DNA from: Microbacteriaceae bacterium VKM Ac-2854 | GTDB lineage: Bacteria > Actinomycetota > Actinomycetes > Actinomycetales > Microbacteriaceae | Assembly: GCA_013205085.1 (NCBI GenBank) | Contig: JABMLH010000007.1 | Span: forward strand, 124,001 to 188,000 | Direction: 5' to 3' | DNA length: 64,000 nucleotides | Notes under the pieces: generated by a model | What the model saw: only the letters and a program-made list of their open reading frames with translations | Told to the model about the DNA's origin: nothing | Database searches by the model: none | In this document: positions 6,058 to 54,920 of the stretch, piece by piece | Layout: each line of letters opens with the position of its first letter | How positions within the stretch are numbered: the first letter of the stretch is position 1 | Position numbers and translations under genes: made by a program

Positions 6058-6102
6058 AGGGTTGTCACTTTGTCCGCTACCAGCCGACAAAGTGACAACC
6101 CT
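6058..6102. terminator. GGTTGTC-type hairpin 1
   Basis: A perfect 17-bp stem (6058-6074 with 6086-6102; agggttgtcactttgtc) and an 11-nt loop directly after the quinone reductase gene. It is one of at least eight palindromes in this window with the same outer GGTTGTC/GACAACC frame. A terminator role is likely from position. Confidence 0.75.
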
Positions 6103-6146
6103 TTCTCAAAGGGTGGCAACGCCAGTGCTCGCGCAGGGGCGCGCCG

Positions 6147-6152
6147 TAGGGT
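6147..6152 (+). promoter_or_regulatory. Leaderless -10 box for the M13 peptidase gene
   Basis: TAGGGT ends exactly 6 nt before ATG 6159 and no Shine-Dalgarno is present, so transcription should begin at or next to the start codon. Confidence 0.55.
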
Positions 6153-6158
6153 GTCCTT

Positions 6159-8123
6159 ATGACTTCTGAGACGCTCCGCTCCGGCATCGACACCGCTGAT
6201 CTCGACCCCGCGACCCGCCCTCAGGACGACCTCTACCGCCACGTCAACGGCAAGTGGATCGACGCGACCGAGATCCCCGCCGACAAGGCGCGGTACGGCT
6301 CCTTCCACGTGCTGCAGGAGGAGGCGGAGAAGGCCGTCCGCGACATCATCATCGAGGCCCAGGGTGCGCCGGACGGCGCCGAGGAACGTCGCTTCGGCGA
6401 CCTCTACGCCTCCTTCATGGACGAAGCCCGCGCCGAGGAGCTCGCCGCCGCGCCGATCCAGGGCGACCTCGACCGTGTGGCCGCGATCGACTCCATCCCC
6501 GGCTTCCTCGCCACGCTCGGCGACCTCGAGCGCTGGGGTGTCTCCGGCTTCTTCGGCCTGTTCGTCGACAACGACCCGGGCAACCCGGAGCGCTACCTCG
6601 TCTTCGTGAACCAGGGTGGCCTCGGCCTGCCCGACGAGAGCTACTACCGCGAGGAGAGCTTCGCGGAGGTGCGCGAGGCCTACGCGCCGTTCGTGGCGAA
6701 GATGCTCGGCCTGGCCGGCCTCGATGACGCCGATGAGCGCGCCGCCCGCATCTTCCAGCTCGAGTCCGCCATCGCCGCCGTGCACTGGGACAAGGTGCGC
6801 AGCCGCGACAGCGAGGCCACCTACAACTTGTTCCACTGGCAGGATGCGGCGGCGCTCGCTGCCGGCGTCGACCTCGGCCCGTGGTTGGAGGCGCTGCGCG
6901 CCCCCGACGGAGCCTTCGCCGAGGTGGTGCTGCGCCAGCCGAGCTTCGTCGAGGGCATCGCCCCCCTGCTCACCGAGCAGAACCTGCCCGCGTGGACGGA
7001 CTGGCTCGCGTGGCAGATCGTCCGCGGCGCCGCGGCGTACCTCTCCTCCGATTTCGTCGAGGGCAACTTCGACTTCTACGGTCGCACCCTGACCGGCACC
7101 CCGCAGATGCGCGACCGCTGGAAGCGCGGTGTCTCGCTCGTCGAAGGTGCCCTGGGCGAGGCCGTCGGCAAGATCTACGTCGAGCGGCACTTCCCGAGCA
7201 CGGCCAAGGCTGCGATGGATGTTCTGGTCGAGCACCTGATCGAGGCCTACCGTCAGTCGATCACCGGGCTGGAGTGGATGGGTCTGAAGACCCGCGAGCG
7301 CGCGCTGGAGAAGCTGCACAAGTTCACGCCCAAGATCGGCTTCCCGGTGAAGTGGCGCGACTACTCCAGCCTGTCGATCGATCCCACCGATCTGCTCGGA
7401 AACGCGCGGCGCATCTCCGAGTTCGAGTTCTACCGCGAGCTGGGCAAGATCGGCAGCCCGCTGGATCGCGACGAGTGGTTCATGACTCCGCAGACCATCA
7501 ACGCGTACTACAACCCGGGCTTCAACGAGATCGTGTTCCCCGCCGCGATCCTGCAGTACCCGTTCTTCGACGAGGGTCGCGACGCCGCCGCGAACTACGG
7601 CGCGATCGGTGCCGTGATCGGCCACGAGATCGGCCACGGCTTCGACGACCAGGGTTCGAAGTACGACGGCGACGGCCGCCTGCTGGACTGGTGGACCGAG
7701 GCCGACCGCGAGGCCTTCGAGGAGCGCACGAAGGCGCTGATCGCGCAGTACGACGCTCTCGCCCCCGCGCAGGTGCCCGACCACCACGTCAACGGGGCGC
7801 TGACGATCGGCGAGAACATCGGCGACCTCGGCGGGCTCGGCATCGCGTGGAAGGCGTATCTGATCTCGCTCGAGGGTCAGGAGCCGCCCCTGATCGATGG
7901 GATGACCGGCGCCGAGCGCTTCTTCCTGTCCTGGGCGCAGGCCTGGCAGCAGAAGGGTCGCGACGAGGAGACGATCCGGCTGCTGGCGATCGATCCGCAC
8001 TCGCCGAACGAGTTCCGCTGCAACCAGATCGTCCGGAACATCGACGCGTTCTACGGTACCTTCGATGTCACCGAGAACGACGCGCTCTGGCTTCCGCCGA
8101 CCGAGCGCGTCACCATCTGGTAG
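6159..8123 (+). CDS. M13-family zinc metallopeptidase (neprilysin/PepO type)
   Basis: 654 residues, the usual length for bacterial M13 endopeptidases. The zinc site is intact: HEIGHGFDDQG (HExxH), then GENIGDLGG supplying the third ligand E and the conserved D. NAYYNPGFNEIVFPAAILQ is the substrate-binding NAYY region. The C-terminal RCNQIVRNIDAFYGTFDV with VTIW at the very end is also family-typical. There is no signal peptide, so it is probably a cytosolic oligopeptidase that degrades peptides below about 30 residues. It appears leaderless. Next to it is a serine hydrolase gene, with no obvious functional link. Confidence 0.93.
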   Translation: MTSETLRSGIDTADLDPATRPQDDLYRHVNGKWIDATEIPADKARYGSFHVLQEEAEKAVRDIIIEAQGAPDGAEERRFGDLYASFMDEARAEELAAAPIQGDLDRVAAIDSIPGFLATLGDLERWGVSGFFGLFVDNDPGNPERYLVFVNQGGLGLPDESYYREESFAEVREAYAPFVAKMLGLAGLDDADERAARIFQLESAIAAVHWDKVRSRDSEATYNLFHWQDAAALAAGVDLGPWLEALRAPDGAFAEVVLRQPSFVEGIAPLLTEQNLPAWTDWLAWQIVRGAAAYLSSDFVEGNFDFYGRTLTGTPQMRDRWKRGVSLVEGALGEAVGKIYVERHFPSTAKAAMDVLVEHLIEAYRQSITGLEWMGLKTRERALEKLHKFTPKIGFPVKWRDYSSLSIDPTDLLGNARRISEFEFYRELGKIGSPLDRDEWFMTPQTINAYYNPGFNEIVFPAAILQYPFFDEGRDAAANYGAIGAVIGHEIGHGFDDQGSKYDGDGRLLDWWTEADREAFEERTKALIAQYDALAPAQVPDHHVNGALTIGENIGDLGGLGIAWKAYLISLEGQEPPLIDGMTGAERFFLSWAQAWQQKGRDEETIRLLAIDPHSPNEFRCNQIVRNIDAFYGTFDVTENDALWLPPTERVTIW

Positions 8124-8258
8124 TCGACGCCGACGTCTGCCCGCACCGCGGATGCCCCGCCCCGCATCCGCGCATCCCGCGCCCGCCGGTTCCCCCCGGC
8201 GAGAACGGATGACCCCTCCGTTCCACCCGCACGCCCTACCCGCAGAGGGGTCCATTCC

Positions 8259-9161
8259 GTGGTGAGTCCCACCCACGAAACCCGCCGACAGAACCGCCGT
8301 GCCCGCCGCGGTCGCCACAAGGGTGACAACGATCACGAGAACTTCGCGCGCGGCTTCGACGCGCTCGGCCAGCTCGCCGTCGACGGAGTGATCGTGTCCG
8401 CCCGGGCCGTCGATCTGGCGACAGGTCGCACGCTGTTCGCGGTCGACGACACGGTGTCGATGCCCACGGCCAGCGTCGGCAAGATCCTGCTGCTGATCGA
8501 AGTCGCCGCGCGTCTGGCGACCGATCCGCAGGAGAATCTGCGACTCGTCGATCGCACGGCGGCGGATGCGGTCGCCGACTCCGGCCTGTGGCAGCACCTG
8601 CAGATCCCGTCGATGCCGATCGCCGATCTTGCGGCGCTGGTCGGAGCCACCAGCGACAACCTCGCCACCAACGTGCTGCTGCGCCGGGTCGGCCTGGAGG
8701 CCGTCCGTGAGCGGGCGGAGGGTCTGGGGCTGAGCCGCACGGCGCTGCTGGACGTGGTCCGCGACGAGCGCGGGCCGGATGATGCTCCGCAGCTCTCCAT
8801 CGGCTCGGCCAAGGAACTGACCTGGCTGATGGCCGCGCTCGCGAACGGTGAGATCGTCGATGCCGGCGTCTCCTCGCGGGTCATCGGCTGGCTGTCGCTG
8901 AACCCTGACCTGTCTCTCGTCGCCTCCGCGTTCGGGCTCGACCCCCTCTCGCACCGCCAGGCCGATCACGGCGTGCTGCTGGTCAACAAGACCGGGGTCG
9001 ACGTCGGAGTCCGCGCCGAGGTCGGTGTGCTCCGGGGCCCGCGTGCCGGCGTCGCGTACGCCGTGATCACCCAGTTCAACGACGTCAACCTGCGCTACCG
9101 CCTCAGCGTGTACGAGGGCCTGCGCACCCTCGGCGTCGACCTTTTGGAGTACACCCACTGA
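8259..9161 (+). CDS. Class A beta-lactamase-fold serine hydrolase without signal peptide
   Basis: 300 residues. The three active-site motifs have class A spacing: SVGK with Ser72 and Lys75, SDN at 132-134, and KTG at 244-246. The omega-loop ExxLN motif is not seen; only D169/E170 lie at that height. This argues against efficient hydrolysis of beta-lactams and for a peptidase, esterase or other PF13354-type role. The N-terminus is very basic (RRQNRRARRGRHKG) and has no export signal, so the protein appears cytosolic, which is odd for a penicillin-recognising fold. GTG 8259 has agagggg upstream. Confidence 0.8.
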   Translation: MVSPTHETRRQNRRARRGRHKGDNDHENFARGFDALGQLAVDGVIVSARAVDLATGRTLFAVDDTVSMPTASVGKILLLIEVAARLATDPQENLRLVDRTAADAVADSGLWQHLQIPSMPIADLAALVGATSDNLATNVLLRRVGLEAVRERAEGLGLSRTALLDVVRDERGPDDAPQLSIGSAKELTWLMAALANGEIVDAGVSSRVIGWLSLNPDLSLVASAFGLDPLSHRQADHGVLLVNKTGVDVGVRAEVGVLRGPRAGVAYAVITQFNDVNLRYRLSVYEGLRTLGVDLLEYTH

Positions 9162-9209
9162 GCCTTCGCGAGAGCACGCCCTCAGATGAGCTGCGGCGCG
9201 TCTCTCGTC

Positions 9210-9527
9210 CTACGCTCGCGCCGCTGCGATCGCGTCCTCGAGCAGCCGGGCGAAGTGGGCGTGCTCGGTCAGCGGCACCGCGACCCAGTCCTTCCACCGG
9301 CGCTCGCCGCCTGGCACGAACAGCTCGGCGCCGGGGATGCCCAGCGCGTCCTCGAGCTGTGGTGTGCCGGCGCCGAGCTTGAAGGCAGCCTGGTGCGGCT
9401 GCATCACGCCGACGACCCGGCCGTCGAGGAACCACGCATCGGATCCGAACATCCTGCTGGGCGTGATGCCCTCGTCCGCGAACTCCGCGGCCAACTGTGC
9501 GTGCAGTGCGGATGCGTCCATGTGCAT
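9210..9527 (-). CDS. Small TfoX-N-like protein
   Basis: 105 residues. SRMFGSDAWFLDGRVVGVMQ and FKLGAGTP fit the pattern of the TfoX/Sxy N-terminal domain (RxMFGg...dGrvfg...lylK), with WKDWVAVP near the end at the YxxVP position. Function in actinobacteria is unknown; such small TfoX_N proteins are not competence regulators by themselves. Divergent from the LLM oxidoreductase gene with 35 bp between starts. Two in-frame ATGs (9527, 9521) are both possible. Confidence 0.6.
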   Translation of the reverse strand: MHMDASALHAQLAAEFADEGITPSRMFGSDAWFLDGRVVGVMQPHQAAFKLGAGTPQLEDALGIPGAELFVPGGERRWKDWVAVPLTEHAHFARLLEDAIAAARA

Positions 9528-9562
9528 CAGTGTGCACCGTCGTGTGCTGCCAGGCTGGACTC

Positions 9563-10474
9563 ATGGACTTCAGAATCTTCACCGAGCCCCAGCAGGGCGC
9601 GAGCTACGACGAGTTGCTCGCCGTCGCGCAGGCCACCGAGCGCCTCGGCTTCGACGGCTTCTTCCGCTCCGACCACTACTTGCGGATGGGGGCGGGCGAC
9701 CCCGGCGCGGGGCCGACGGACGCGTGGACGACCCTGGCCGGGCTCGCCCGCGAGACCGAGCGGATCGCTCTGGGCACCCTGGTCTCCTCCGTTACGCACC
9801 GCTGGCCCGGCGTGCTGGCCGTTCAGGTCGCGCAGGTCGACCAGATGTCCGGCGGTCGCGTCGAGCTGGGCCTCGGCACCGGTTGGTTCCAGGAGGAGCA
9901 CGAGGCGTTCGGCATCCCGTTCCCGCCCAAGCGTTTCGATCTGCTGGAGGAGCAGCTGGAGATCGTGACCGGGCTCTGGAACACGCCGGCGGGTGAGAGC
10001 TACAGCTATGCGGGCGCGAACTACACGTTGAAGAACGCACCGGGCCTGCCGAAGCCCGCGCGGCTGCCGGTGCCGGTGATCGTCGGCGGAAAGGGCGCCA
10101 AGCGCACCCCGGCGCTCGCCGCGCGATTCGCGACCGAGTTCAATCTGCCGTTCCCCGATCCCGGCACGATCCCGGAGACCTTCGACCGGGTGCGCGCCGC
10201 GTGCACGGCCGTCGGTCGTGATCCGGAGTCGTTGCTCTACTCGGTCGCGCTGGTCGCGGCGGTCGGGCGCGACGATGCGGAGGTCGCACGCCGCGCCGAC
10301 GCCATCGGTCGCGAGCCGGATGAGCTGCGTCGCAACGGCCTCGCCGGCACCGTCGCGGAGGTCGCCGACACGCTCGCCGCGCTGCAGGCCGACGGTGTGC
10401 AGCGGGTCTACCTGCAGATCCTCGACCTGCACGACCTCGATCACCTCGAGCTCATCGCGGGCGAGCTGCTCTAG
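9563..10474 (+). CDS. LLM-class (F420-type) flavin-dependent oxidoreductase
   Basis: 303 residues of the luciferase-like monooxygenase fold. MDFRIFTEPQQGASYDELL, GFDGFFRSDHYLRMG, IALGTLVSSVTHRWPGVLA and RVELGLGTGWFQEEHEAFGI are standard for the F420-dependent TIGR03560-like group. The bulge region VSSVTHR and the glycine-rich loops that hold the deazaflavin or FMN are present. Substrate unknown. ATG 9563 follows a weak -10 (CAGGCT) at 6 nt, so it may be leaderless. A longer upstream frame exists but would run through the divergent gene start. Confidence 0.88.
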   Translation: MDFRIFTEPQQGASYDELLAVAQATERLGFDGFFRSDHYLRMGAGDPGAGPTDAWTTLAGLARETERIALGTLVSSVTHRWPGVLAVQVAQVDQMSGGRVELGLGTGWFQEEHEAFGIPFPPKRFDLLEEQLEIVTGLWNTPAGESYSYAGANYTLKNAPGLPKPARLPVPVIVGGKGAKRTPALAARFATEFNLPFPDPGTIPETFDRVRAACTAVGRDPESLLYSVALVAAVGRDDAEVARRADAIGREPDELRRNGLAGTVAEVADTLAALQADGVQRVYLQILDLHDLDHLELIAGELL

Positions 10475-10490
10475 GCGGTGGCGCCTCGAA

Positions 10491-10539
10491 AAAGGGTTGT
10501 CACTTCGTCCGCAGGTACCGGAGAAAGTGACAACCCTTT
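10491..10539. terminator. GGTTGTC-type hairpin 2
   Basis: A 15-bp perfect stem (10491-10505, aaagggttgtcactt, with 10525-10539) lies between the convergent LLM and aquaporin genes. It is probably a bidirectional terminator. The same family as 6058-6102, with a different loop. Confidence 0.75.
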
Positions 10540-10551
10540 CGAGCGGGCGCC

Positions 10552-11331
10552 CTACTTCTCGAAGAGCACCTTCTGGGCGGCGCCGGCGATGATCGCGCCG
10601 AGCACCGGGGCCAGGAGGAACAGCCAGAGCTGGCCGAGGGCGTCGCCGCCGCCGTAGATCGCGGTCGCGATCGAGCGCGCCGGGTTCAGCGACGTGTTCG
10701 AGATCGGGATGGTCGCCAGGTGCAGCAGGGTCAGCGTGCCGCCGATCGCGGCCGGCGCGATGCCGGGGATCGCGCGGGGGCCGGTCACGCCGAGGATCAC
10801 GAAGAGGAACACCGCTGTCGCGATCACCTCGGTGATCAGCACGGCGACGAGCGAGAATCCGCCGGGCGAGTGCTCGCCGAATCCGTTCGACGCGAAACCG
10901 CCCGCCTGCGCCGTGGACAGAGCCCCGTCGGGGCCGCTGGCGAGGATCGCGACCAGCACGCTGGAGGCGATCGCGCCGCCGATGATCTGCGCGACGACGT
11001 AGGGCAGAACGCCCTGCCACGCGAAGCGGCCGGCCACGGCGAGGCCGATGGTCACCGCAGGATTGAAGTGGCCCCCGGAGATGTGCCCGACGGTGGAGGC
11101 ACCGATGAAGACGGTGAGTCCGATCGCGATCGAGACGCCGAGGAAGCCGACGCCGAAGGGGGTGGCGTCGTCGAAGCCGAAGCTCGCCGCGAAGAGTGCG
11201 GTGCCGATGGTGCCGAAGACCAGCAGGAAGGTGCCGAACACCTCCGCCGCCAGACGCGAGGACGTCGCTGGGGCGACGGCGGTCGGATCGAGTTCGGGTT
11301 GCGTCTGAAGGGGCGCACTTTCGCTGGTCAT
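10552..11331 (-). CDS. aqpZ: Aquaporin (AqpZ-like MIP channel)
   Basis: 259 residues with six membrane helices and both NPA boxes: GGHFNPAVT near residue 83 and NTSLNPARS near residue 200. The second loop carries Arg directly after NPA, as in all MIP channels. The first half-helix region VGHISGGHFNPAVTIG and the absence of Asp after the second NPA (S instead) point to a water-selective rather than glycerol channel. ATG 11331 has gagga upstream. The N-terminus has a polar extension of about 27 residues. Single-gene unit. Confidence 0.9.
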   Translation of the reverse strand: MTSESAPLQTQPELDPTAVAPATSSRLAAEVFGTFLLVFGTIGTALFAASFGFDDATPFGVGFLGVSIAIGLTVFIGASTVGHISGGHFNPAVTIGLAVAGRFAWQGVLPYVVAQIIGGAIASSVLVAILASGPDGALSTAQAGGFASNGFGEHSPGGFSLVAVLITEVIATAVFLFVILGVTGPRAIPGIAPAAIGGTLTLLHLATIPISNTSLNPARSIATAIYGGGDALGQLWLFLLAPVLGAIIAGAAQKVLFEK

Positions 11332-11516
11332 CGGTTCCTCCGTGAGGTGTGTGGGCGCGCCGAATCGGTCTCGGCGAGCAGCCATCCTGGACGCCGGCCC
11401 GAAGCGCACGAGCGCGAGAATCGCTCAGCGCTCAGAAGAATCATGGCAGTCGGTCACGCGGCGGCCCCGCTCCGAGGCCGACGATGACGCGGAATGTCGG
11501 ACCGCGTGACGCGCCG

Positions 11517-11522
11517 TAGGGT
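11517..11522 (+). promoter_or_regulatory. Leaderless -10 box for clpS
   Basis: TAGGGT ends 6 nt before GTG 11529, in the same spacing as for the M13 peptidase gene. No Shine-Dalgarno. Confidence 0.55.
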
Positions 11523-11528
11523 GGTCAG

Positions 11529-11849
11529 GTGTCCGCCTCCGTGATCTCCGCCTCCGCCGATGTGCGTGAGCGGCCCGATCTGCGCGAGGAGACGGTGACC
11601 CGCTCCCGGGCGGATGTGCCCTGGGTCACCATCGTCTGGAACGACCCGGTCAACCTGATGAGCTACGTCTCGTACGTCTTCCGCAGCTACTTCGGCTTCT
11701 CGCGCGCCGAGGCGGAGCGATTGATGCTGCAGGTGCACAACGACGGCCGCGCCGTGGTCGCGACCGGCAATCGCGAGCAGATGGAGGTGCACGTCCAGGC
11801 CCTGCACGAGTACGGACTCTGGGCGACGCTGCAGAAGGAGGATGCCTGA
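11529..11849 (+). CDS. clpS: ClpS, adaptor for the Clp protease
   Basis: 106 residues. WVTIVWNDPVNLMSYV is the N-degron-binding region with the conserved N-D-P; LMLQVHNDGRAVVATG contains the HxxGxA-type segment that binds the ClpA/ClpC N-domain. ClpS hands proteins with bulky N-terminal residues to ClpCP. The gene overlaps the DUF2017 gene by one base, as in most actinobacteria. GTG start from a leaderless promoter. Confidence 0.95.
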   Translation: MSASVISASADVRERPDLREETVTRSRADVPWVTIVWNDPVNLMSYVSYVFRSYFGFSRAEAERLMLQVHNDGRAVVATGNREQMEVHVQALHEYGLWATLQKEDA

Positions 11850-12382: not shown

Positions 12383-12511
12383 GGCGCGTCCAACCCGGGA
12401 AAATCGACAGACGCCGTTTCCCACAGCTGTGCATAACTCTGTGGAGAGAGGTGTGAACTGTGTAGAAACTCGGCACCGGGCAAGGGGGTTACCGTACTCG
12501 GAGGCCACCGC

Positions 12512-12517
12512 TAGCGT
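12512..12517 (+). promoter_or_regulatory. Leaderless -10 box for DUF1206 gene
   Basis: TAGCGT ends 6 nt before ATG 12524. Between it and the preceding gene lie about 120 bp with two short CACAG/CTGTG dyads around 12420-12450 and nothing else recognised. Confidence 0.5.
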
Positions 12518-12523
12518 CGAAGG

Positions 12524-21327: not shown

Positions 21328-21394
21328 CCCCGCGAGATGCCTCTTCTGTACGCGACACGCCGGGCGATGCGTACAGAAGAGGCATCTCGCGGGG
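21328..21394. terminator. Perfect 26-bp hairpin after the reductase gene
   Basis: Stem 21328-21353 with 21369-21394, no mismatch, 15-nt loop. The inner stem (gatgcctcttctgtacgc) is unlike the GGTTGTC family. It starts six bases after the stop codon and ends before the gluconokinase -10 box, so it probably insulates the two genes. Confidence 0.75.
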
Positions 21395-22915: not shown

Positions 22916-22970
22916 GGGGTTGTCCTTTCGTCGACACTCGCAGAGCTCGCGTCAACGAAAGGACAACCCC
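22916..22970. terminator. GGTTGTC-type hairpin 3
   Basis: A perfect 16-bp stem, ggggttgtcctttcgt (22916-22931) with 22955-22970, between the convergent SIP and rhamnosidase genes. Same outer frame as the other members with a different inner stem. Confidence 0.75.
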
Positions 22971-25285: not shown

Positions 25286-25328
25286 GGGTTGTCACTTCGT
25301 CGGTGAGTTGCGGACGAAGTGACAACCC
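25286..25328. terminator. GGTTGTC-type hairpin 4
   Basis: A perfect 16-bp stem, gggttgtcacttcgtc (25286-25301) with 25313-25328, between the LacI-type gene and the rhamnosidase gene, both on the minus strand. If it terminates, the two genes are separate units despite their order. Confidence 0.7.
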
Positions 25329-25347: not shown

Positions 25348-25396
25348 GCGGGAAGGAGCGACGACCCTGTGAAGAAAGGTTGTCGCTGCGTCCCGC
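25348..25396. terminator. GGTTGTC-type hairpin 5 (imperfect)
   Basis: Stem 25348-25366 with 25378-25396 matches at 16 of 19 positions and carries GGTTGTCGC at its inner end. Here the frame is turned inside out compared with the other members: the GACGACC/GGTTGTC part is nearest the loop. It lies nine bases from the end of the LacI-type gene. Confidence 0.6.
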
Positions 25397-27972: not shown

Positions 27973-27984
27973 CCCGCCCCTCCT

Positions 27985-28032
27985 CAGCGGGTTGTCGTTT
28001 CTTTGACGCGTCAAAGAAAAGACAATCCGCTG
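27985..28032. terminator. GGTTGTC-type hairpin 6, inside the importer operon
   Basis: A 48-bp loopless palindrome: 27985-28008 against 28009-28032 matches at 22 of 24. It carries GGGTTGTC at its left end. Placed between the substrate-binding protein gene and the first permease gene, it could act as an attenuator or mRNA stabiliser, giving more binding protein than permease. Confidence 0.7.
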
Positions 28033-28063
28033 GGGACCCCGACCCCGATCGACGGAGATCCTG

Positions 28064-34493: not shown

Positions 34494-34514
34494 GAAAAAA
34501 GGGTTGTCACTTTG
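34494..34514. repeat. GGTTGTC-type hairpin 7, left half (split by IS)
   Basis: Left arm of a hairpin whose right arm now lies at 35885-35904. Joined without the IS and one target copy, the two arms would pair over 19 bases and continue into tcggtc/gaccga in the duplicated target. It lies between the convergent esterase gene and rhaS. Confidence 0.8.
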
Positions 34515-34529
34515 TCGGTCGGTGACCGA
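34515..34529. repeat. Target-site duplication, left
   Basis: tcggtcggtgaccga, 15 bp, identical to 35870-35884 on the other side of the IS. It was the loop and inner stem of the target hairpin. Confidence 0.85.
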
Positions 34530-35869
34530 TGTGATGTCTCTCAACTTCGTGGACGGTTGTGTCTCACGACATCGTGGGGGTTTTATGTCTCACTGACAAC
34601 GTGGACATTCCCGATGTAGGGCGTTCCCGGGCTTGCTCGGGGACGCTCTGCGATCAGGGTTCCGTCGTCGTTGAAGACGGTGAGGGTCGTGTCGGTTGTG
34701 ATGGTGAGCACGCGTGTGCCGGCGTGTTCGCGTCCGATGAGGTAGCGGGTGCCGTCTAGCCGGATGGTTCCGGTGCGGTCGACTTTGCGTTCTCGTCCGG
34801 CCCAGTCGATGTCGTGTGTGTCGGCGCTGGGTTGGGGTGATGGGGCCGGCGGGGTGGCGTTCCATGCCTCGAGCGGGGTGGTGTTGCGTGCGAGGGATTG
34901 GTGGGCGCGGCGGGTGTTGTAGTGCTCATCGAAAGCGTCCACCAGTGTCTGCAGTTCGGCGATGGTGTTCGCGGGTCCGCGGGCGTTGAGGTAGCGGTGC
35001 AGGGTCTGGTGGAATCGTTCGTTCTTGCCCTGCGTGGTGGGGCTGGCGATCTTGCCGGTGATCGGTTGCACGCCCTGCGAGGTCAAGTATCGGACCAGCC
35101 TGCTCGTGGAACCCATGCGGGTCGAGTTGAACGCGCGACCGTTATCGGACAGGAACCGTTGCGGGGCGCCGTGTTTCGCGATCGCGGCCTGCACGACGGC
35201 GATCGCGCCCGCGGCGGTCTCACCCGTCGCGACGAGCGACGCCAGCGCGAGGCGTGAGTGGTCATCGACGAGTTGAAAGATCGCGACTTTGCGCCCGTTC
35301 GCGAGGGACCATTCGGTCGCGTCGATCTGCCACAGGCAGTTCGGCGCCGGATACACGAATCGGCGCATCGCCGAGCGCGGCTTCTTCTTCGGCTCGGGTA
35401 CCACGACCCCGGCACGGCTGAAGATCCGAGCGATCGTGGCGCGTGAGGGCGGCTGCACCCCGGCCCGCTCCAGCGTGAACTGCACGCTCAACGGACCGAA
35501 ATCGTGACCCTCGACCCGAAGCTGTTCCCGCGTGGCCAGCACGAGCGCGACCATTTCCTCGCTCGTCGCGTGGGGCGAGGAACGCGGGCGACGTGATCGC
35601 GGCATCAGGACCGCGAACGGGTCGGACGCTCGCGCCTGCGCACGGACCTTATGGAACCAGGACCGCGAGACGCCGTGCTCGCGACAGAACGCGGCAACAG
35701 CGCCCCGCGGCGCATTCTCAGGCCAGGACGCGACCGGAGACGAACTTTCGGACTGGGCATCGACGTGGGCACCAGCCGAGCCAAAACCCAGAACTATCCA
35801 CGATGTCGTGAGACACACCGTCCACGATGTCCGGAGACACAACAGTCCACGATGTCCTGAGACTTCACA
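34530..35869. mobile_element. IS481-family-like insertion sequence, 1340 bp
   Basis: The terminal inverted repeats of 25 bp (34530-34554 and 35845-35869) begin TGTGA and match at 20 of 25. Behind each end lie two more copies of the same motif GTCTC-n-GACATCGTGGAC (left 34561-34577 and 34587-34606; right 35820-35838 and 35797-35814), so three transposase-binding-like repeats per end. One DDE transposase gene fills the middle. The 15-bp target duplication and clean flanks show a recent, complete copy. Confidence 0.9.
34583..35818 (-). CDS. IS481-like DDE transposase
   Basis: About 411 residues. N-terminal HTH region (GAVAAFCREHGVSRSWFHKV), second HTH (PSRATIARIFSRAGVV), then an integrase core with D in WQIDATEWS, D in FLSDNGRAF and E in GKNERFHQTLHRY: the complete DDE triad. 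C-terminal region NTRRAHQSLARNTTPLEAW is usual for this family. The frame opens beyond the right IS end; GTG 35818 is the first start well inside the element but is a guess. The last codons (HVVSET) are encoded by the third left-end repeat. It appears intact and may be active. Confidence 0.9.
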   Translation of the reverse strand: MCLTTSWIVLGFGSAGAHVDAQSESSSPVASWPENAPRGAVAAFCREHGVSRSWFHKVRAQARASDPFAVLMPRSRRPRSSPHATSEEMVALVLATREQLRVEGHDFGPLSVQFTLERAGVQPPSRATIARIFSRAGVVVPEPKKKPRSAMRRFVYPAPNCLWQIDATEWSLANGRKVAIFQLVDDHSRLALASLVATGETAAGAIAVVQAAIAKHGAPQRFLSDNGRAFNSTRMGSTSRLVRYLTSQGVQPITGKIASPTTQGKNERFHQTLHRYLNARGPANTIAELQTLVDAFDEHYNTRRAHQSLARNTTPLEAWNATPPAPSPQPSADTHDIDWAGRERKVDRTGTIRLDGTRYLIGREHAGTRVLTITTDTTLTVFNDDGTLIAERPRASPGTPYIGNVHVVSET

Positions 35870-35884
35870 TCGGTCGGTGACCGA
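35870..35884. repeat. Target-site duplication, right
   Basis: Second copy of the 15-bp target, identical to 34515-34529. Confidence 0.85.
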
Positions 35885-35904
35885 CAAAGTGACAACCCTT
35901 TTTC
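35885..35904. repeat. GGTTGTC-type hairpin 7, right half
   Basis: caaagtgacaaccctttttc, the mate of 34494-34514, 17 bases from the end of rhaS. It probably ended the rhaTPQS operon before the insertion. Confidence 0.8.
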
Positions 35905-44559: not shown

Positions 44560-44603
44560 GCGAAAGGTTGCAGGTCGACGCGCGTCGGCCTGCAACTTTT
44601 CGC
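44560..44603. terminator. Near-perfect hairpin between MFS and AraC genes
   Basis: Stem 44560-44580 with 44583-44603, 19 of 21 paired, two-base loop; inner sequence gttgcagg/cctgcaac. It lies between convergent genes, 14 bp after the MFS stop and 20 bp before the AraC-type stop, and so suits both directions. Confidence 0.75.
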
Positions 44604-48328: not shown

Positions 48329-48338
48329 ATCTGTGACC

Positions 48339-48344: not shown

Positions 48345-48350
48345 GGGGGT

Positions 48351-49796
48351 ATGACTCCAACTCTCCTCCCTCGCATCGCCGCTCTGGCGGCGCAGGTGCG
48401 TGATGAGGTCGCCTCGATCGAGTGGGGGCGGCTGACGGAGAACGAGCGTATGGAACTCGCGGTCGCGTGGGGAGGGTTGGAGCGGGCCGTGGTCGGCGGT
48501 GCGGTCGGGGCGGCGGGCGCGATCGAGGCGGCCTGCCAGGTGGAGCGGGGGATGGACTCGCTGGCGTTGCGGTACGGGGTCCGCACCGGGAAGCAACTGC
48601 TGGCGATGCTCACCGGATCCTCCGAAGCCACGGCGGGGCGGCGGATCCGGTTGGCGCAGGCGGGGATGGGGAAAGCGGTCACCAGCGGCTGGGGCGCGCC
48701 CGCACTGTTCCCCGTGATGGGGCAGGCGGTGCTGGCCGGGACCATGCACGCGGACGCCGCGGAGGTGCTCGTATCGACTCTCTCCGGGTCCGCGGCGCGG
48801 ATCCACCCCGACGAACTCGCGGTCGCGGAGAAGGCGATCGTGGAATCCGCGACCGACCCGGCCGGGGACGCGAACGCGCACGGCGCCGTCACCGGGACCG
48901 GGATCGCGGCGGAACTGGTGAAGATCCAAGCCCTCGCCTGGCGAGCCCGGTTGGACCCCGACGGGCTCGAACCCAGCGAGGAGGAAGCGTTCCACCTCCG
49001 CAACGCCGTGTGGCGTCGCGGGAAGACCGGCACGGAGACGCTCGTGTTGACGGTGACGACGGAGCAGGCCGCGGCGATCAAATCGTCGCTGTCCCCGCAC
49101 ACCAGCCCCCGCAAGCCCGCGTTCCGCGACGGCGACAACACCCGGGAGACGGCGGAGGATGCCGTGTTCGGCGATGACCGCACCCACGGGCAGAAGGTAC
49201 TCGATACCGTCGTCGCGCTCGTCGTCGCCGGCGCCGCGTCCGAGGCACCCGCCGGGGCGACGCCGCAGATCACCGCCTACGTGAACGCCGACGACCTCAA
49301 CGACGCCGCGACCGGGCCCGCGTACCTGGATCACACGGACGAGCCCGTGCCGGCGGCGTCGGTGCGGCGGTTGCGGTGTCACGGGGAGGTGCGCCTCGCG
49401 ATCCTCGGTGACCGCAACATGACCGACGCCCTCGGCCGGCCCGTGCGGGAGTTCACGCCCGCGCAGAAGAAGCTCCTCGCCGCCCTGTACGGCGGCTGCG
49501 CCTGGCCGGGCTGCACCGCTCCACCCGCGTGGACCGAGGCGCATCACGTGCACTGGCACTCCCGCGGTGGCGAGACGAGTGTGCGGAACGGGGTGCCGTT
49601 ATGCGCTTTTCACCACCACGTGGTCCACGCGAACACCGGGTGGGAGATCGTGATGAAGATGACCGCGCAGGGCCTGCGTGCGCACCTGATCCCACCGTTC
49701 GTGATCGACCCGCACCGCACACCACGACCGATGGGCAACCCCCACCGAAAGCTCACCGGACGACCCGAAGACCCCGACCCGCCGCCCGAACCCTGA
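48351..49796 (+). CDS. DUF222/HNH endonuclease family protein (13E12-type)
   Basis: 481 residues. Long helical DUF222 domain (residues about 20-330; ALRYGVRTGKQLLAMLTGSS) followed by an HNH nuclease: GGCAWPGCTAPPAWTEAHHVHWHSRGGET in segments, then NGVPLCAFHHHVVH, with the CxxxxC...HH...H...CxxHH zinc/metal pattern complete. These occur in many divergent copies in actinobacteria (13E12 repeats of mycobacteria) and are suspected mobile or selfish genes; no biological role is established. The C-terminus is Pro-rich and disordered. Confidence 0.9.
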   Translation: MTPTLLPRIAALAAQVRDEVASIEWGRLTENERMELAVAWGGLERAVVGGAVGAAGAIEAACQVERGMDSLALRYGVRTGKQLLAMLTGSSEATAGRRIRLAQAGMGKAVTSGWGAPALFPVMGQAVLAGTMHADAAEVLVSTLSGSAARIHPDELAVAEKAIVESATDPAGDANAHGAVTGTGIAAELVKIQALAWRARLDPDGLEPSEEEAFHLRNAVWRRGKTGTETLVLTVTTEQAAAIKSSLSPHTSPRKPAFRDGDNTRETAEDAVFGDDRTHGQKVLDTVVALVVAGAASEAPAGATPQITAYVNADDLNDAATGPAYLDHTDEPVPAASVRRLRCHGEVRLAILGDRNMTDALGRPVREFTPAQKKLLAALYGGCAWPGCTAPPAWTEAHHVHWHSRGGETSVRNGVPLCAFHHHVVHANTGWEIVMKMTAQGLRAHLIPPFVIDPHRTPRPMGNPHRKLTGRPEDPDPPPEP

Positions 49797-49814
49797 TCGG
49801 GCCGGCCTTCGGAC

Positions 49815-50714
49815 TCAGTTACCCGGGGGATACAGGAACAGCGGGATCTCGCCGACCGACAGGGTGCGCGTTCCGTAGGAGTGTTTGCCGCCGTAGTTGT
49901 ACTCCTCGATGAGTACGGTGCCGTCGCCGTTCACGGACTGCACGTAGGCGACGTGGTTGTAGCCGAACCAGGCGGCGCAGCCCACGATCGGCGTGTTGCT
50001 GGTCGCCCAGCCCTTGCTCGACCAGTTGGACGGCCACTCGTAGGCGCTGCCGCCGTTCGGGGTGATCACGCTCCAGGTGTACTTCCACGGGGCGGAGGTG
50101 GCGCCGGCGTCCCGGTTGAAGCGCCAGGCCACGAAGTCGACGCATTCGCGGAAGTAGTACATCAGCGGCGAGAGACCGCCGCCCTCGTCATCGGTCGCCT
50201 CGTACGGCCACGGATAGTCGTCGCCGACGGCCTGGGTCTGCACGGTGGTGTAGCTGCCGTTGCCGGCGGTGGAGAGGATCGAGGCCTGCCGCTTCGCCGC
50301 ATCCAACTGCTCAGGGGTGGGGGCGGCGAAGGCGTCGCGAACGGCGGTCGAGGCCGCGGCATCCGCCGACACGGTGAGCTTCTGCATGGTGCCGGTCGTC
50401 GCGGCGCCGGTCGCGGTGCCGGCGGACGAGCGCGCCGCGTACGCGGGGATGGCGGCGGTGGCGAAGAGGCCGCCGACGATGCCGAACGTGGCGAAACCGA
50501 GAGCGCGGCGGCTCAGCGACCGCGCCGGGGTGCTGGTGGCGGCCGGCGCCGGGGCGGGGGCGGATCCGATCGGCGGGGTGAGCACGGCATGCGGATGCGT
50601 GGCAGGAACGACGGCGGGCGCCGGACTCGACTGGACCTGCCGTACTCGACGCGCCGACTCCTCCGCGGCCCGCGCCTCGCGGCGGGTGAGCGGGGGTGGT
50701 TCGGGGTTCGACAC
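49815..50714 (-). CDS. Exported CHAP-domain cell-wall hydrolase
   Basis: 299 residues. A polar Ala/Pro-rich N-terminal part of about 65 residues, then a membrane/signal segment beginning SRRALGFATFGIVGG (twin-Arg, possibly Tat) and ending AYAA, a linker, and from about residue 165 the CHAP domain: YYFRECVDFVAWR has the nucleophile Cys, YNHVAYVQSV the His, VLIEEYNY the following acidic motif. It would cut peptidoglycan cross-bridges outside the cell. GTG 50714 has gaggag upstream. Convergent with the HNH gene. Confidence 0.88.
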   Translation of the reverse strand: MSNPEPPPLTRREARAAEESARRVRQVQSSPAPAVVPATHPHAVLTPPIGSAPAPAPAATSTPARSLSRRALGFATFGIVGGLFATAAIPAYAARSSAGTATGAATTGTMQKLTVSADAAASTAVRDAFAAPTPEQLDAAKRQASILSTAGNGSYTTVQTQAVGDDYPWPYEATDDEGGGLSPLMYYFRECVDFVAWRFNRDAGATSAPWKYTWSVITPNGGSAYEWPSNWSSKGWATSNTPIVGCAAWFGYNHVAYVQSVNGDGTVLIEEYNYGGKHSYGTRTLSVGEIPLFLYPPGN

Positions 50715-50899
50715 GCGCCAGAGCTCCTCGGGTTTCGGCCTGTGGGGACCGTGGCAGTTTACGTGCCGGCCTCGGATAACAAAACGGTCACGACGGAGTC
50801 TGAGTGCTTCCCTGAACGGGATCGAAGGCTGCGCGGGTTCGAACTCCGCCCCGTCAGCGCCGCTGCGGTGCGAGGATGGGCGGAAGGAGAGGAGCCCCG

Positions 50900-51451
50900 A
50901 TGACCGATGCCCCGCGTTCCGTTCCATCCGACTCCGAGCACGGCGCCGTCGTCGTGGGGGTCGTCGAGGGCCAATCGCCGGCGGTGCTGGCCACCGCATT
51001 GCGGACGGCTACCGATCTGGGCGCGCCCCTCCTGGTCGCGCACGTCGCCCCCGATCCGTACCTGCTCGGCGAGTACGTCGACACGGGCACCGGCGGTGTC
51101 GCCGTCGGTTCCGCGGCCGTGCTGGCCGCCGAACTCGACGCGGTGACGCATCCGGTGTTCCCGGTCGAGCTCGCCGCGACCGTCGAGTCGGCGCTGGCGG
51201 GCTCCACCGTTCGACACAGCCTGCGGGTGCTCAGCGGCGAGCCGGCGCTCGCGCTGGGCGACATCGCCGAGCGCGTCGACGCGCGGATGATCGTGGTCGG
51301 CACGCGCGAGGCCGGCGTGCTCGCGGGCATCGCCGAGTTCCTCAGCGGCAGTGTGGCGGTACACCTCGCGCACCGCCAGCACCGCCCGGTGCTCGTCGTT
51401 CCGCAACCCGACCGCAACCCGCACCGCACGGCCCCTTGGGACCTCGCCTGA
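50900..51451 (+). CDS. Universal stress protein (UspA)
   Basis: 183 residues, one Usp domain. VVVGVVEGQSPAVLATALRTA at the start and MIVVGTREAGVLAGIAEFLSGSVAVHLAHRQHRPVLVVP near the end (in segments) carry the G-2x-G-9x-G(S) nucleotide-binding pattern. ATG 50900 follows ggagaggagg-like bases. The 185-bp upstream gap holds the divergent promoters and a ggttcgaactcc run that is not a tRNA. Confidence 0.85.
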   Translation: MTDAPRSVPSDSEHGAVVVGVVEGQSPAVLATALRTATDLGAPLLVAHVAPDPYLLGEYVDTGTGGVAVGSAAVLAAELDAVTHPVFPVELAATVESALAGSTVRHSLRVLSGEPALALGDIAERVDARMIVVGTREAGVLAGIAEFLSGSVAVHLAHRQHRPVLVVPQPDRNPHRTAPWDLA

Positions 51452-51530
51452 CCCTGCGAGGGACCCCCTCAGCACGCGAGGGCGCCCCCGCCGGGGGCGC
51501 CCTCGAGTGCTGTGCGGGTCCCTCGCAGGG
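51452..51530. terminator. Nested bidirectional terminator
   Basis: Outer stem 51452-51465 with 51517-51530 (14 bp, perfect) and inner stem 51478-51490 with 51492-51504 (13 bp, perfect). It fills the whole space between the convergent UspA and beta-helix genes. Confidence 0.8.
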
Positions 51531-51535
51531 AGGGG

Positions 51536-53131
51536 TCAGCTGACCCGGATGGAGACCGGCGCGGAGGTGCCGGTGTTCTTGGCGGCGTCGACGGCCTTCG
51601 CGGTGACGGAGTAGGTCGTCTTCGCGAGGGTCGCGGTGTTCACCAGAAGGGTCCACTGTCCGGAGGAGTTCTTCGTCGCATCACCGATCTTGGTGGTGCC
51701 CAGCCAATAGCTCACCCCGGTCACGCCCACGTTGTCGTCCGCGGTCGCGACGAGCAGAACGGATCCGGTCACGGTGCTGCCCGTGGTGGGCGAGTCGATC
51801 GCCACCGTCGGCGCGGTGCGGTCGGTCGGCGCGGGCGTCGCGGTCGGCCTCGGCGTCGCGGTCGGCGTCGCGGTCGGCGTGGGGGTCGCCGTCGGGGTCG
51901 GAGTCGCGGTCGGCGTGGCCGTCGGAGTCGCGGTCGCGGTCGGCGTCGCGGTCGGCGTGGGCGTGGGCGACGGAGCCGCCCCGACGCCGCCGGGCGCGTC
52001 CGCGCCGGCGATGGTGGCCGGGATGACCTGGCCGTCGATGTCCTTCGGGGCCGGGGAGAAGGAGCCGAAGGGCGTGATCGTCGCGGTGGCCGCGCTGGTC
52101 ACGTGCAGGTTCGATCCCTCCTCGTCCACGAAGGACACGGTGCCGACGCGGTTACCCTTGCCGGCCGCGACCGACTGCGGTTGCGAGCAGAGCTTGGTGT
52201 TCCAGTTCTCGATGATGGAGTTGGTCACCACGGCGGCGCACTCGGAGAGGTACGTGACGATGTTGCGGTCGAAGCTCGCGTTGGTCATGCCGCTGAAGCG
52301 CACGGCGCCGTAGGAGAACGTGTTGTTGCGCACGGTCACGTTCACGGCCGAGGTCTCGCGCATGTCGGTGGCCGAGCCGCCCTTGCAGTCGTTGGTGATC
52401 ACGATGCAGCCCTGCACGAAGTTGCCCTCGACCAGGATGTCGCTCATGCCGTCGCCGCCACCCGGGGAGAAGATGATGCCCGCGTTGTAGCAGTTCGACA
52501 GCTTGTTGCCGCGGAGGGTGACGCCGTTGCTCTCGAACACCTGGATGCAGTCGGAGTGCAGGCCGTTGTTCTTGTTCTGGTCGTAGTCGTGCACGACGTT
52601 GTCCTCGATCAGCGCGTTCGTGGATCCGCCGACCTGGATGCCGTCGATCGACGAGCCGTTCTCGAACTCGGAGTCGCGCACGATCACATTCGCGGAACGC
52701 ACGAAGATGCCCGCGCCGTCGATGTGCATCCGGTTCACCGTGATGCCGGTGCCGTAGGTGTAGAAGGTCGACTTCGAGTAGATGTCGTTCCACACCGTGT
52801 TGCCGGAGTAGACCTTGGTCGAGCCGAGAACGGGGGAGGCGCCCGGCGCGGGCTGCACGGTGACGGGCGCCGAGGTGGTGCCGCGGGTGCCGTTGAGGTT
52901 GGTGGTGGGGTAGGTGCCGCTGGTGAGCAGCACCGTGTCGCCCGCGCTCGCGTTCTGCACGGCGGTGGTGAGCGCGCAGGGCGCGGCGGCGGTGCAGGTG
53001 GTGCCGGTGCCGGCGGGAGCGGCGTACCGCGTGCCCGCCGCGTAGCTCGGGGCCGCGAACAACGCCGCGACGACGGCGAGGGCGGCGAACGCGGCGAAGC
53101 TCGCCGCGATCATCCTGGATAGACGGTTCAT
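51536..53131 (-). CDS. Exported right-handed beta-helix protein with Ig-like tail, paralogue 1
   Basis: 531 residues: signal peptide (to about residue 32, ending PSYAA), right-handed parallel beta-helix (residues about 33-385; repeated NVIVRDSEFENG, ALIEDNVVHDY, VTLRGNKLSNC turns), a Pro/Thr/Ala linker of about 60 residues, and a C-terminal Ig-like domain (TVAIDSPTTGSTVTG ... VGVTGVSYWLGTTKIGDA). The FSPGGGDGMSDILVEGNF turn is identical in form in the second copy at 54933-56483. Such helices bind or cleave polysaccharides (lyase, epimerase), but no catalytic set is evident to me. Start ATG 53131; GTG two codons earlier possible. Confidence 0.85.
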   Translation of the reverse strand: MNRLSRMIAASFAAFAALAVVAALFAAPSYAAGTRYAAPAGTGTTCTAAAPCALTTAVQNASAGDTVLLTSGTYPTTNLNGTRGTTSAPVTVQPAPGASPVLGSTKVYSGNTVWNDIYSKSTFYTYGTGITVNRMHIDGAGIFVRSANVIVRDSEFENGSSIDGIQVGGSTNALIEDNVVHDYDQNKNNGLHSDCIQVFESNGVTLRGNKLSNCYNAGIIFSPGGGDGMSDILVEGNFVQGCIVITNDCKGGSATDMRETSAVNVTVRNNTFSYGAVRFSGMTNASFDRNIVTYLSECAAVVTNSIIENWNTKLCSQPQSVAAGKGNRVGTVSFVDEEGSNLHVTSAATATITPFGSFSPAPKDIDGQVIPATIAGADAPGGVGAAPSPTPTPTATPTATATPTATPTATPTPTATPTPTATPTATPRPTATPAPTDRTAPTVAIDSPTTGSTVTGSVLLVATADDNVGVTGVSYWLGTTKIGDATKNSSGQWTLLVNTATLAKTTYSVTAKAVDAAKNTGTSAPVSIRVS

Positions 53132-53351
53132 GGTCACTCGGTTCCAATCAAGGGAGGGAGGGGCTCGGGGCGGAGCGCTGGGAAAGGTTGGTGGGGGCGG
53201 GGAAAGTAAGCTGGGGGCACGGGATCGGATGCGACCGCCACGCACCATCGCTCCTGCAGTACCGGCGTCCGCGATCCCGTGGAGACGGCGCGTATCCGAC
53301 GGATGCGGCCGAGCAACGGCGAGTCACGATGGGGCTCAGGACGGTGAAGCA

Positions 53352-54572
53352 GTGAGTCGAGTGACGAATCTGGCGAACAAGGCCAGGCGCGCGATGAAGA
53401 ACCCGGCTCTGCTCTCGGCGGGGGCGAGCGTGGCGTTCATCGGAGCGAAGGGCGGCTCCGGGAAGAGAGCGATCCTGATCGCGCCGCCCGGTGCCGGCAA
53501 CATCGGCGATGCCGCCCTCGTGGGCGCGTTCCTCGAGAACGTGGCGGGCCCGATCACCGTGATCAGCCGCTATCCCGCGGACTTCCGCATCCCGCCGGCG
53601 CTCGCCGATCGGGTGCAGCTCGTCGCCCTTGGCAGCCTGCTCTACGGCGGGCTGCCGAGCTTCGTGCGTGACCTGCGGCGCTTCCGGGCGCTGCTGGCCG
53701 ACGCGTCCTCGGTCTCGGTCGTCGGGGCGGACATCATGGACGGCGCGTACAACTTCCGTGCCTCCACGAGTCGCGCGGTCGTCGCCCGCAGCGCCGCGGC
53801 CGCCGGTGTCGACACGCGGGTGCTCGGCTTCAGCTGGAACGGCAAGGCGCATCCCGCCGCCGTGGCGCAGCTGCGCGCCGCCGACCGCGCGGGGGTCGCG
53901 CTGTACCTGCGCGACCCGCTCTCCGTCGAGCGCGCGCGCCGCGACGGCCTGGAGGCCCACGCGGCGGCGGACATCGTCTTCACCGCGAAGACCGTCGACA
54001 ACAGCCGCGCCGACCGCGAGCTCGCCACGATCCCCACGGAGCAGGGCTACGCGATCGTGAACGTGTCCGGCCTGATCGAGAACGACCAGACCGCCGCGTA
54101 CGTCGAGATCATCAGCGGCCTGCGCGATCGCGGGCTGGGCGTTGTGCTGCTGCCGCACGTGATCAAGAAGGGGCCGGACGACCTCGCCGCCTGCCGCCGC
54201 GTCTTCGCCGCGCTCGGCGACACGACCGGCGTCGCCTTCGTCGAAGAGGTGCTGACCCCGGCCGAGGTGCGCGGATTCACCGAGCGCGCGACCATCACGG
54301 TGACGGGCCGGATGCACCTGGCGATCATGTCGCTGATGAAGGGTGTGCCGGCCGTCACCCTGGCCACCCAGGGCAAGGTCGAGGGGCTGATGGCGATGTT
54401 CGAGCTGCCCTACCTCTGCGTCGAGCCGGGCGAGGGACTGGCCGAGCGTGTCGGCGCCGCGCTCGAGCGCATCCTCGCCGATCGCGAGGCGGTGTCGTCG
54501 GCCATCCGCGCCAAGCTGCCCGAGGTGACGGCGCTCGCCGAGCAGAACTTCGCGGGTCTGCCGCGGGTCTGA
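53352..54572 (+). CDS. Polysaccharide pyruvyl transferase family protein
   Basis: 406 residues. ILIAPPGAGNIGDAALVGAFLENV (the GNxGD motif of the family) near residue 47 and VTGRMHLAIMSLMKGVPAVTL near residue 320, with VVLLPHVIKKGPDD between, match the GT-B-like PS_pyruv_trans fold (CsaB relatives). It would transfer pyruvate from PEP to a cell-wall or exopolysaccharide sugar. It lies between two minus-strand beta-helix genes, so it is a single-gene unit. GTG 53352 is the likely start, as the upstream frame crosses the divergent promoter. Confidence 0.85.
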   Translation: MSRVTNLANKARRAMKNPALLSAGASVAFIGAKGGSGKRAILIAPPGAGNIGDAALVGAFLENVAGPITVISRYPADFRIPPALADRVQLVALGSLLYGGLPSFVRDLRRFRALLADASSVSVVGADIMDGAYNFRASTSRAVVARSAAAAGVDTRVLGFSWNGKAHPAAVAQLRAADRAGVALYLRDPLSVERARRDGLEAHAAADIVFTAKTVDNSRADRELATIPTEQGYAIVNVSGLIENDQTAAYVEIISGLRDRGLGVVLLPHVIKKGPDDLAACRRVFAALGDTTGVAFVEEVLTPAEVRGFTERATITVTGRMHLAIMSLMKGVPAVTLATQGKVEGLMAMFELPYLCVEPGEGLAERVGAALERILADREAVSSAIRAKLPEVTALAEQNFAGLPRV

Positions 54573-54856
54573 GCTGATCGGCTGCACGGGGTCGCTCCGT
54601 TCGGGCTGTCGGCGGTTTCGGGGACGGCTGAGGCGTGCGCGGGCGCACGCAGGAGAGAGCCGGGAGAGCCTCCCGACGGCGGTGCCGGGCCGGGAGGTGC
54701 GGCGATCATTGCCGCGGGACAGTGCGCCGGAAATGCCCGTTGATCGGGCCGTTCCGGTGGTCTGCAGCGAGACTAACCGAGCGCCGATCGGCGATGGGGC
54801 TGGTGAGCATTCGTCCGAGCGCTCGGCACGCGCTCGGGGGACGGGCCGAAAGAAGA

Positions 54857-54920
54857 AGGGGGTTGTCACGTCGTCCCACACTCTCGATCGATGGAGCGTG
54901 GGACGCCGTGACAACCCCCT
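54857..54920. terminator. GGTTGTC-type hairpin 8
   Basis: Stem 54857-54879 with 54898-54920, 22 of 23 paired, outer agggggttgtcacg. It lies between the convergent pyruvyltransferase-family and beta-helix genes, and is the only clear structure in the 360-bp gap 54573-54932. Confidence 0.75.

Follow-up and report, generated by a model that had tools for sequence, protein, structure and literature searches.

Introduction

The half-unit of a repetitive extragenic palindrome (REP) is itself a short imperfect palindrome, a conserved head tetranucleotide is a defining feature of REPs, and in Escherichia coli one REP is located between malE and malF. Stem-loop-containing repeat families in general, many of them intergenic and some near gene 3' ends, have been surveyed in 40 genomes, where the high-GC Gram-positives, in the portions of these surveys available to us, are Corynebacterium diphtheriae, Mycobacterium leprae and M. 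tuberculosis (PMC1590033, 2006; PMC2267715, 2008). Within the same limits on the sources, inverted pairs of a conserved oligonucleotide, the DNA uptake sequence, form terminators in Neisseria and the Pasteurellaceae (PMC1852404), and insertion sequences (ISs) that target REPs are on record (PMC1525189). Here, we describe palindromes framed by GGTTGTC and GACAACC in a 64,000-nt stretch (the window) of the genome of Microbacteriaceae bacterium VKM Ac-2854. We propose, with a probability of roughly 0.65, that they are dispersed lineage-specific palindromes in mRNA 3'-end slots, where they would act as terminators and/or 3' stabilisers, and that they spread by copying into existing slots.

A dispersed family at gene 3' ends

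The GGTTGTC palindromes are a lineage-specific, narrow and dispersed family. A strict pattern matches the 4.75-Mb genome 91 times forward and 98 times reverse, with no match on either strand for the reversed-pattern control; since most palindromes match both strands, this corresponds to roughly 100 loci, and a family beyond chance, as an earlier note on this DNA had anticipated, is borne out. A covariance model built from 34 copies gives at least 150 matches in this genome and 80 in a sister genome (G004, taken to be Microbacteriaceae bacterium VKM Ac-2855), counted per strand, and none at E<=0.001 in 13 other genomes of the genus, with 150 candidates scored in each. The genus, judging by the next named relatives of one window protein, would be Rathayibacter, and the family is present in 2 of its 15 genomes. 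Among 398 Microbacteriaceae genomes the strict pattern matches four, namely these two and a further two with a single match whose interior is not palindromic, so that palindromic copies are confined to 2 of 398.

We catalogued 116 copies (40 of class A, 62 of class B and 14 unclassed). Of these, 35 come from a half-unit scan of a contiguous 800-kb stretch, 4 from the window and 77 from 60 fetched stretches that were picked by high scores or earlier matches; the catalogue is not exhaustive. Class A has the architecture AAAAGGGTTGTCACTTTGTCGG, a 7-nt loop and a mirror arm carrying CCCTTTT; class B reads AGGGGGTTGTCACTCCGTCCC(A/G)C with a variable centre. With gene calls from the table trained on the 800 kb, 64 copies are convergent (between converging genes), 45 tandem and 3 divergent, and 4 lie inside predicted genes. 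In tandem gaps, 37 of the 45 are closer to the upstream stop (median 15 nt) than to the next start (median 55). Because the stretches chosen by score have a larger convergent share than the contiguous 800 kb, the latter provides the fair figure: of the 34 inward palindromes there, 13 are convergent, compared with 85 of all 422 gaps (p=0.012; counted by bases, p=0.0007), and 2 are divergent, compared with 110 of the 422 (p=0.003), with 3 in predicted genes. Other hairpin families of the same genome are similarly placed.

Within the palindromes, arms are constant and loops drift. Among 30 class A copies, identity between copies is 90% in the inner arms, 100% in the outer frame and 52% in the 7-nt loop (38% with random orientation), though the search behind 12 of the 30 already demanded the frame. 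When the inner arms alone were scanned for, whatever the frame, 15 copies were recovered in the 800 kb, and in all 15 the outer frame was intact on both sides; the catalogue as a whole shows almost no variation in the first seven bases or in an inner GTC. This constancy could stem from recent copying, homogenisation or recognition by a protein. As a side observation on the loop, 13 of 17 class A tandem-gap copies have its consensus TGGGTAG pointing against the direction of transcription, a weak hint of orientation.

One option is that the palindrome is the binding site of a sequence-specific DNA protein, such as a nucleoid or domain-boundary factor, and is palindromic by chance. The intact frame and the near-invariant positions would suit such a site, as would the limitation to two sister genomes, which could share a private factor; the location just past stop codons and the swap with unrelated hairpins described below speak for RNA instead, and we consider this option highly unlikely.

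Pair covariation in 34 copies exceeded all of 500 shuffles and every slid control, the double changes in stems being mostly one difference between classes A and B repeated, with a few further ones within class B. The earlier note took compensatory change as a sign of selection on the stem; the covariation is there but alone proves no selection, because an arm-copying mutation would leave the same sign. Quasipalindrome correction is such a mutation and yields apparent compensatory change.

Palindromes of the window

The window has 22 occurrences of the half-site GGTTGTC where 5.83 are expected (about fourfold), a count reached in none of 100 shuffles. The members of the family are as follows, with positions here and throughout being those of the window unless the contig (C1) or an L-numbered stretch is named.

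6058..6102: class A palindrome (GGGTTGTCACTTTGTCCG-loop-CCGACAAAGTGACAACCC), frame beginning 8 nt past the stop of a plus-strand gene, tandem context; 61.9 bits; -36.4 kcal/mol, z -8.3
10491..10539: class A palindrome whose arms come from two subtypes, leaving two mismatched pairs, between convergent genes; 64.2 bits
22916..22970: distant member, GGTTGTC-CTTTCGTC..GACAACC, with a long centre, between convergent genes; 32.5 bits
25286..25328: class A palindrome, tandem (minus-strand) context; 57 bits
25355..25392: outward-facing half-unit pair (GGAGCGACGACCC..GGTTGTCGCTGCGTCC), tandem gene context
27981..28036: palindrome framed by GGTTGTC, inner stem TTTCTTTGAC, located between genes for a solute-binding protein and an ABC permease; 28.3 bits
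34499..34529: left half of a class A palindrome, terminating in one 15-bp direct-repeat copy (34515-34529)
34530..35869, minus strand: insertion sequence of 1,340 bp with an integrase-core (rve) transposase open reading frame, in the palindrome centre
35870..35902: right-hand part of the same split palindrome (class A), opening with the second direct-repeat copy (35870-35884)
54857..54920: palindrome of class B (AGGGGGTTGTCACGTCGTCCCAC..GTGGGACGCCGTGACAACCCCCT) in a convergent gap; 56.5 bits; -51.3 kcal/mol

Six palindromes are intact and inward-facing, one more is split by the IS, and the element at 25348 faces outward. The earlier note had counted at least eight with one common frame. Five of these are exact and intact (6060-6100, 10495-10535 and 25287-25327 by window pattern search, and 22918-22968 and 54861-54916 with a longer interior than the other three) and that at 34494 is the split one; the palindrome at 27985 departs from the count in its inner stem and in a right frame, GACAATC, that is one base off GACAACC, and the element at 25348 does not share the frame at all, reading GACGACC..GGTTGTC with its half-units pointing outward. 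That both arms had changed together in each copy, as was also claimed, is true in part: RNA folds leave one stem position unpaired in 6058, 25286 and 27981, two in 10491 and 54857 and several central ones in 22916, so that every intact copy has at least one and the arms have not always changed together. Our gene calls agree in placing four loci (10491, 22916, 34494 and 54857) between convergent genes; tandem genes flank 6058 and 25286/25348, and the neighbours of 27985 encode solute-binding-protein and ABC-permease domains. With a covariance model from 34 other copies, six window loci were recovered with E<=0.0003 and half of the split copy with E=0.54, and an Rfam scan of the window gave no match at gathering scores.

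The IS at 34530-35869 is flanked by the 15-bp direct repeat and has one full copy in the genome. Since a single full copy does not allow its preference for palindromes to be judged, we dropped it as evidence of palindrome targeting.

Orthologous slots in the sister genome and congeners

Between VKM Ac-2854 and G004, 108 neighbouring gene pairs were matched, 62 of them with a gap of at least 50 bases, and a hairpin is found in at least one genome at 30 of these 62. The slot test, which keeps G004 intervals of 40-700 bases only, leaves 42 non-divergent slots, with a hairpin in both genomes at 17, in VKM Ac-2854 only at 7, in G004 only at 3 and in neither at 15 (Fisher p=0.0006; p=0.0007 and 0.0013 with stricter hairpin thresholds). 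In the same order, tandem slots alone give 13, 4, 2 and 14 (p=0.0003), and divergent slots 0, 1, 0 and 15.

Catalogued copies occupy 6 class A and 5 class B matched slots. None of the class A slots holds an A in G004: three hold another repeat family (a GAGATGCC, a GAGGGACCC and a GGCTGAGAG palindrome), two no hairpin and one an outward pair only. The C1:174060 slot, a GAGATGCC one in G004, is counted among these six, although at 998 bases it exceeds the 700-base limit and hence stands outside the Fisher test. Three of the five class B slots hold a B in G004 (C1:171305, 214232 and 505271). G004 lacks a family counterpart for the palindromes of a further subtype at C1:93077 and 505420, C1:75935 pairs a GAGGGACCC palindrome in VKM Ac-2854 with a B-like one in G004, and at C1:505295 pairing is, by eye, kept in both genomes, G-U included, with bases changed in both arms. 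The family names of the GGCTGAGAG hairpin at C1:94863 and the B-like one at C1:75935 were also given by eye, the script having assigned none. In the window, the class A copy at 25286..25328 has no counterpart seen in the matched G004 gap, the outward pair at 25355 has a like arrangement at the same place, and 27981-28036 has a class-A-like palindrome at the corresponding place. Class B looks like an older set, partly common to the sister genome, and class A, with its A/T tracts, like a later spread in VKM Ac-2854.

Further afield, a hairpin lies 6-30 nt past the stop of gene C1:469337-472261 in all 10 congeners examined (of 14). It is of the GAGATGCC family in two, and private GC-rich hairpins of two types occupy the slot in others; in G014 a GAGATGCC hairpin comes after a private one, an arrangement that looks intermediate, and the class A hairpin of this gene in VKM Ac-2854 is matched in G004 by a hairpin (AGCGGGCTGTCGCTTCC..) that could be a decayed relative. 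The slot after gene C1:472549-475170 holds a hairpin in 8 of 10 congeners. Left out of the congener counts are paralogues at 57-58% identity (two rows, L150 and L268) for the third gene examined, C1:475363-479622, and two stretches fetched for that gene, L277 and L278, gave no usable row.

RNA folding and the proposed role

RNA folds of seven window stretches are more stable than all of 200 shuffles (z -3.8 to -8.6), and median folding energies are -36.2 kcal/mol in class A and -48.5 kcal/mol in class B. The palindromes thus offer what is looked for in an intrinsic terminator by way of a stable GC-rich hairpin soon after the stop codon. Class A carries a moderate T-tract in both directions and class B hardly any. 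On the sense strand of all tandem hairpins, G-U wobbles outnumber A-C mismatches 68:44 (one-sided p=0.015), the bias expected of a function at the RNA level.

In light of these features, what might the role of the palindromes be? We infer that they probably help to end or protect mRNAs. On transcription of the upstream gene, the palindrome would form a very stable RNA hairpin about 15 nt past the stop codon, which would stop transcription and/or shield the mRNA 3' end; between convergent genes, one hairpin could work for both directions. The sequence of the slot hairpin would be exchangeable, relatives often carrying a hairpin of another family or a private one in the same slot, and palindromes would spread to slots where a 3'-end hairpin is useful. 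Because the same slots hold other hairpins in relatives, we infer that copying probably spread the GGTTGTC sequence, which either took over 3'-end slots that already existed or was added to them. Bidirectional termination is plausible for the palindromes; for the 27981 copy, between its solute-binding-protein and permease genes, a role as 3' stabiliser or as partial terminator is the better reading.

Several points weigh against this proposal. The genes were called by our own script and are uncurated, the slot sample is small (the 42 non-divergent slots), and convergent slots taken alone reach no significance (both 4, VKM Ac-2854 only 3, G004 only 1, neither 1; p=0.72). Two of the five class B slots lack a B in G004, C1:501009 holding two TTCTTTGAC-type palindromes there and C1:475137 an ordinary hairpin, and the slot after C1:475363-479622 has a hairpin above threshold in 1 of 8 congeners only. 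The frame seems more constant than pairing alone requires, hinting at sequence recognition or homogenisation. The wobble count for classes A and B of the larger catalogue stands at 33:29 (p=0.35), so that it differs in outcome from the count for all tandem hairpins and leaves the RNA-level sign undecided. U-tracts are weak, with a mean of 3.8 T in the 8 nt after CCC in class A and 2.0 in class B, against a background of 1.4, and none of the window copies was flagged when 5000-64000 was scanned with a terminator consensus; the earlier note's description of the palindromes as kept as bidirectional terminators is accordingly softened to a plausible one.

Means of spread

A second option is that the palindromes are a non-autonomous mobile element, resembling a miniature inverted-repeat transposable element or a REPIN, which has no host function and is found wherever insertion was harmless. 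They are indeed dispersed, lineage-specific and highly similar, with similarity among copies ending within a few bases of the frame; half-units pair both inward and outward, and local tandem arrays exist at L206 (2221-2680, 4 copies spaced 95-186 bp) and L218 (5029-5220, 3 copies spaced 70 bp). Harmless insertion alone, on the other hand, would explain neither the other hairpins in orthologous slots nor the median of 15 nt from stops. There is also no clear signal of target-site duplication: counting as an excess at least 3 copies and 2.5x expectation, none extends to more than 3 of the 40 class A or 4 of the 62 class B copies (one example is a 4-base match shared by 3 of the 62). The REP-associated transposase (RAYT) suggested by the earlier note as something to look for did not materialise, a Y1, IS200-like transposase (PF01797) being found in 0 of the 15 genus genomes, VKM Ac-2854 included, with a search control positive in 5 of 14 named genomes. 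We regard a mobile element with no host function as unlikely.

Half-units in the 800 kb number 90, of which 74 are paired and 16 single, against 4 for the reversed-pattern control. By eye, three of the 16 singles are palindrome arms whose partner missed the threshold; five lie inside predicted genes, four of these with two mismatches. No autonomous partner with the same terminal repeats was noticed among the single half-units, no systematic search having been made. The half-unit counts also bear on a reading of the palindromes as DNA uptake-sequence-like repeats that serve as terminators in the Neisseria/Pasteurellaceae fashion: a conserved oligonucleotide does occur in inverted pairs at terminator positions, but with so few singles, and uptake sequences generally at 1,000 or more per genome in the available part of the source (PMC1852404), we rejected this reading as scarcely credible.

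A composite A-B element was also considered. Of the 13 pairs of neighbouring palindromes at most 350 bp apart, six join an A to a B and one joins an A to an unclassed copy. The displayed spacers are mutually unlike (by eye, unaligned), and at C1:469 kb and 747 kb each palindrome is near the stop of one of two convergent genes, and the candidate was dropped.

Other palindrome families

Three further families are represented in the window.

21328..21394: member of a second palindrome family (GCGAGATGCC..GGCATCTCGC, core 59 bp)
44560..44603: copy that likely belongs to a third family (type GCGAAAAGTTGCAG..CTGCAACTTTTCGC), with one arm changed
51452..51530: member of a fourth family (CTGCGAGGGACCC.. 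type)

The 59-bp family, GCGAGATGCC[A/T]CTT..AAG[A/T]GGCATCTCGC with an off-centre CGACACGCCG, is present in 11 of the 15 genus genomes, at up to 84 copies. Its inner stem tends to be genome-specific (TGTACG in VKM Ac-2854, ATGCACG in G004, GTGCACG in G006, G008 and G014, and often ATGACG in G002), and copies within one genome tend to agree even at shared slots (C1:528406 and 224586), which looks like concerted evolution. Palindromes of the GAAAAGTTGCAG..CTGCAACTTTTC kind (the type of 44560-44603) number 58 in VKM Ac-2854, 2 in G004 and 0 in the other 13 genus genomes. Those of the TTCTTTGAC..GTCAAAGAA kind (27999-28018 in the window) number 29 in G004, 2 in VKM Ac-2854 and 0 in the 13 others, from which it follows that the sister genome has expanded another family. 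Gene ends of the window and contig C1 also host the CTGCGAGGGACCC family, with long hairpins of up to about 83 bp, and a GGTTGAGC(C/T)TGCCGAAACCA family.

A broader version of our proposal, which we hold with more doubt than belief, is that the genus exchanges whole families (GGTTGTC, GAGATGCC, TTGCAG, GAGGGACCC and TTCTTTGAC) at persisting slots through RAYT-independent machinery, and that at least one of them (GAGATGCC) shifts its inner stem genome-wide with the outer frame fixed, as if a recognising factor co-evolved.

Comparison with known systems

As far as the available portions of the following sources go, the described relatives include the stem-loop repeat families, which are likewise structured, in many cases intergenic and in some near gene 3' ends, stem-loops being generally favoured in convergent gaps (PMC1590033; PMC2267715). 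What is added here is the slot-by-slot exchange of families between congeners, and the GGTTGTC family was not found in those portions. The earlier note knew of no description of the family, and none turned up in the open-access literature searched; the general kind, stem-loop repeats at gene ends, is nevertheless published. With uptake-sequence terminators (PMC1852404) the palindromes share the inverted oligonucleotide pairs that form hairpins and the enrichment between convergent genes, but single GGTTGTC half-units are few, few lie in genes, and the copy number is far lower.

The palindromes resemble REPs and REPINs (PMC8049555) in being dispersed, intergenic and of many copies, with possible inverted pairs. 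They differ in that no RAYT was found in the 15 genomes, in that three tested half-units are not hairpins themselves (18, 50 and 130 of 200 shuffles match or exceed their folding), and in that no conserved head tetranucleotide was seen by eye in the copy alignment. Of the label REP-like given by the earlier note, what is supported is a true repeat family that is intergenic, lies at gene 3' ends and is enriched between convergent genes; a REP in the strict sense is not supported, since a RAYT-type transposase was not found and the three half-units fold no better than shuffles. As with the REP-targeting ISs (PMC1525189), the IS at 34530-35869 sits in a palindrome centre. The palindrome at 27981-28036 occupies the same kind of position as the malE-malF REP, a gap between a solute-binding-protein gene and an ABC permease gene, with a different sequence.

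What is unusual beside these systems is how many families one genome holds, that they are exchanged at fixed slots and that no RAYT was found. Terminators are usually viewed as private sequences evolving in place; here, hairpins of unrelated repeat families can be compared slot by slot at the same gene ends across related species in which no RAYT was found. This makes it testable how short palindromes spread without a RAYT, and whether dispersed repeats turn into working terminators.

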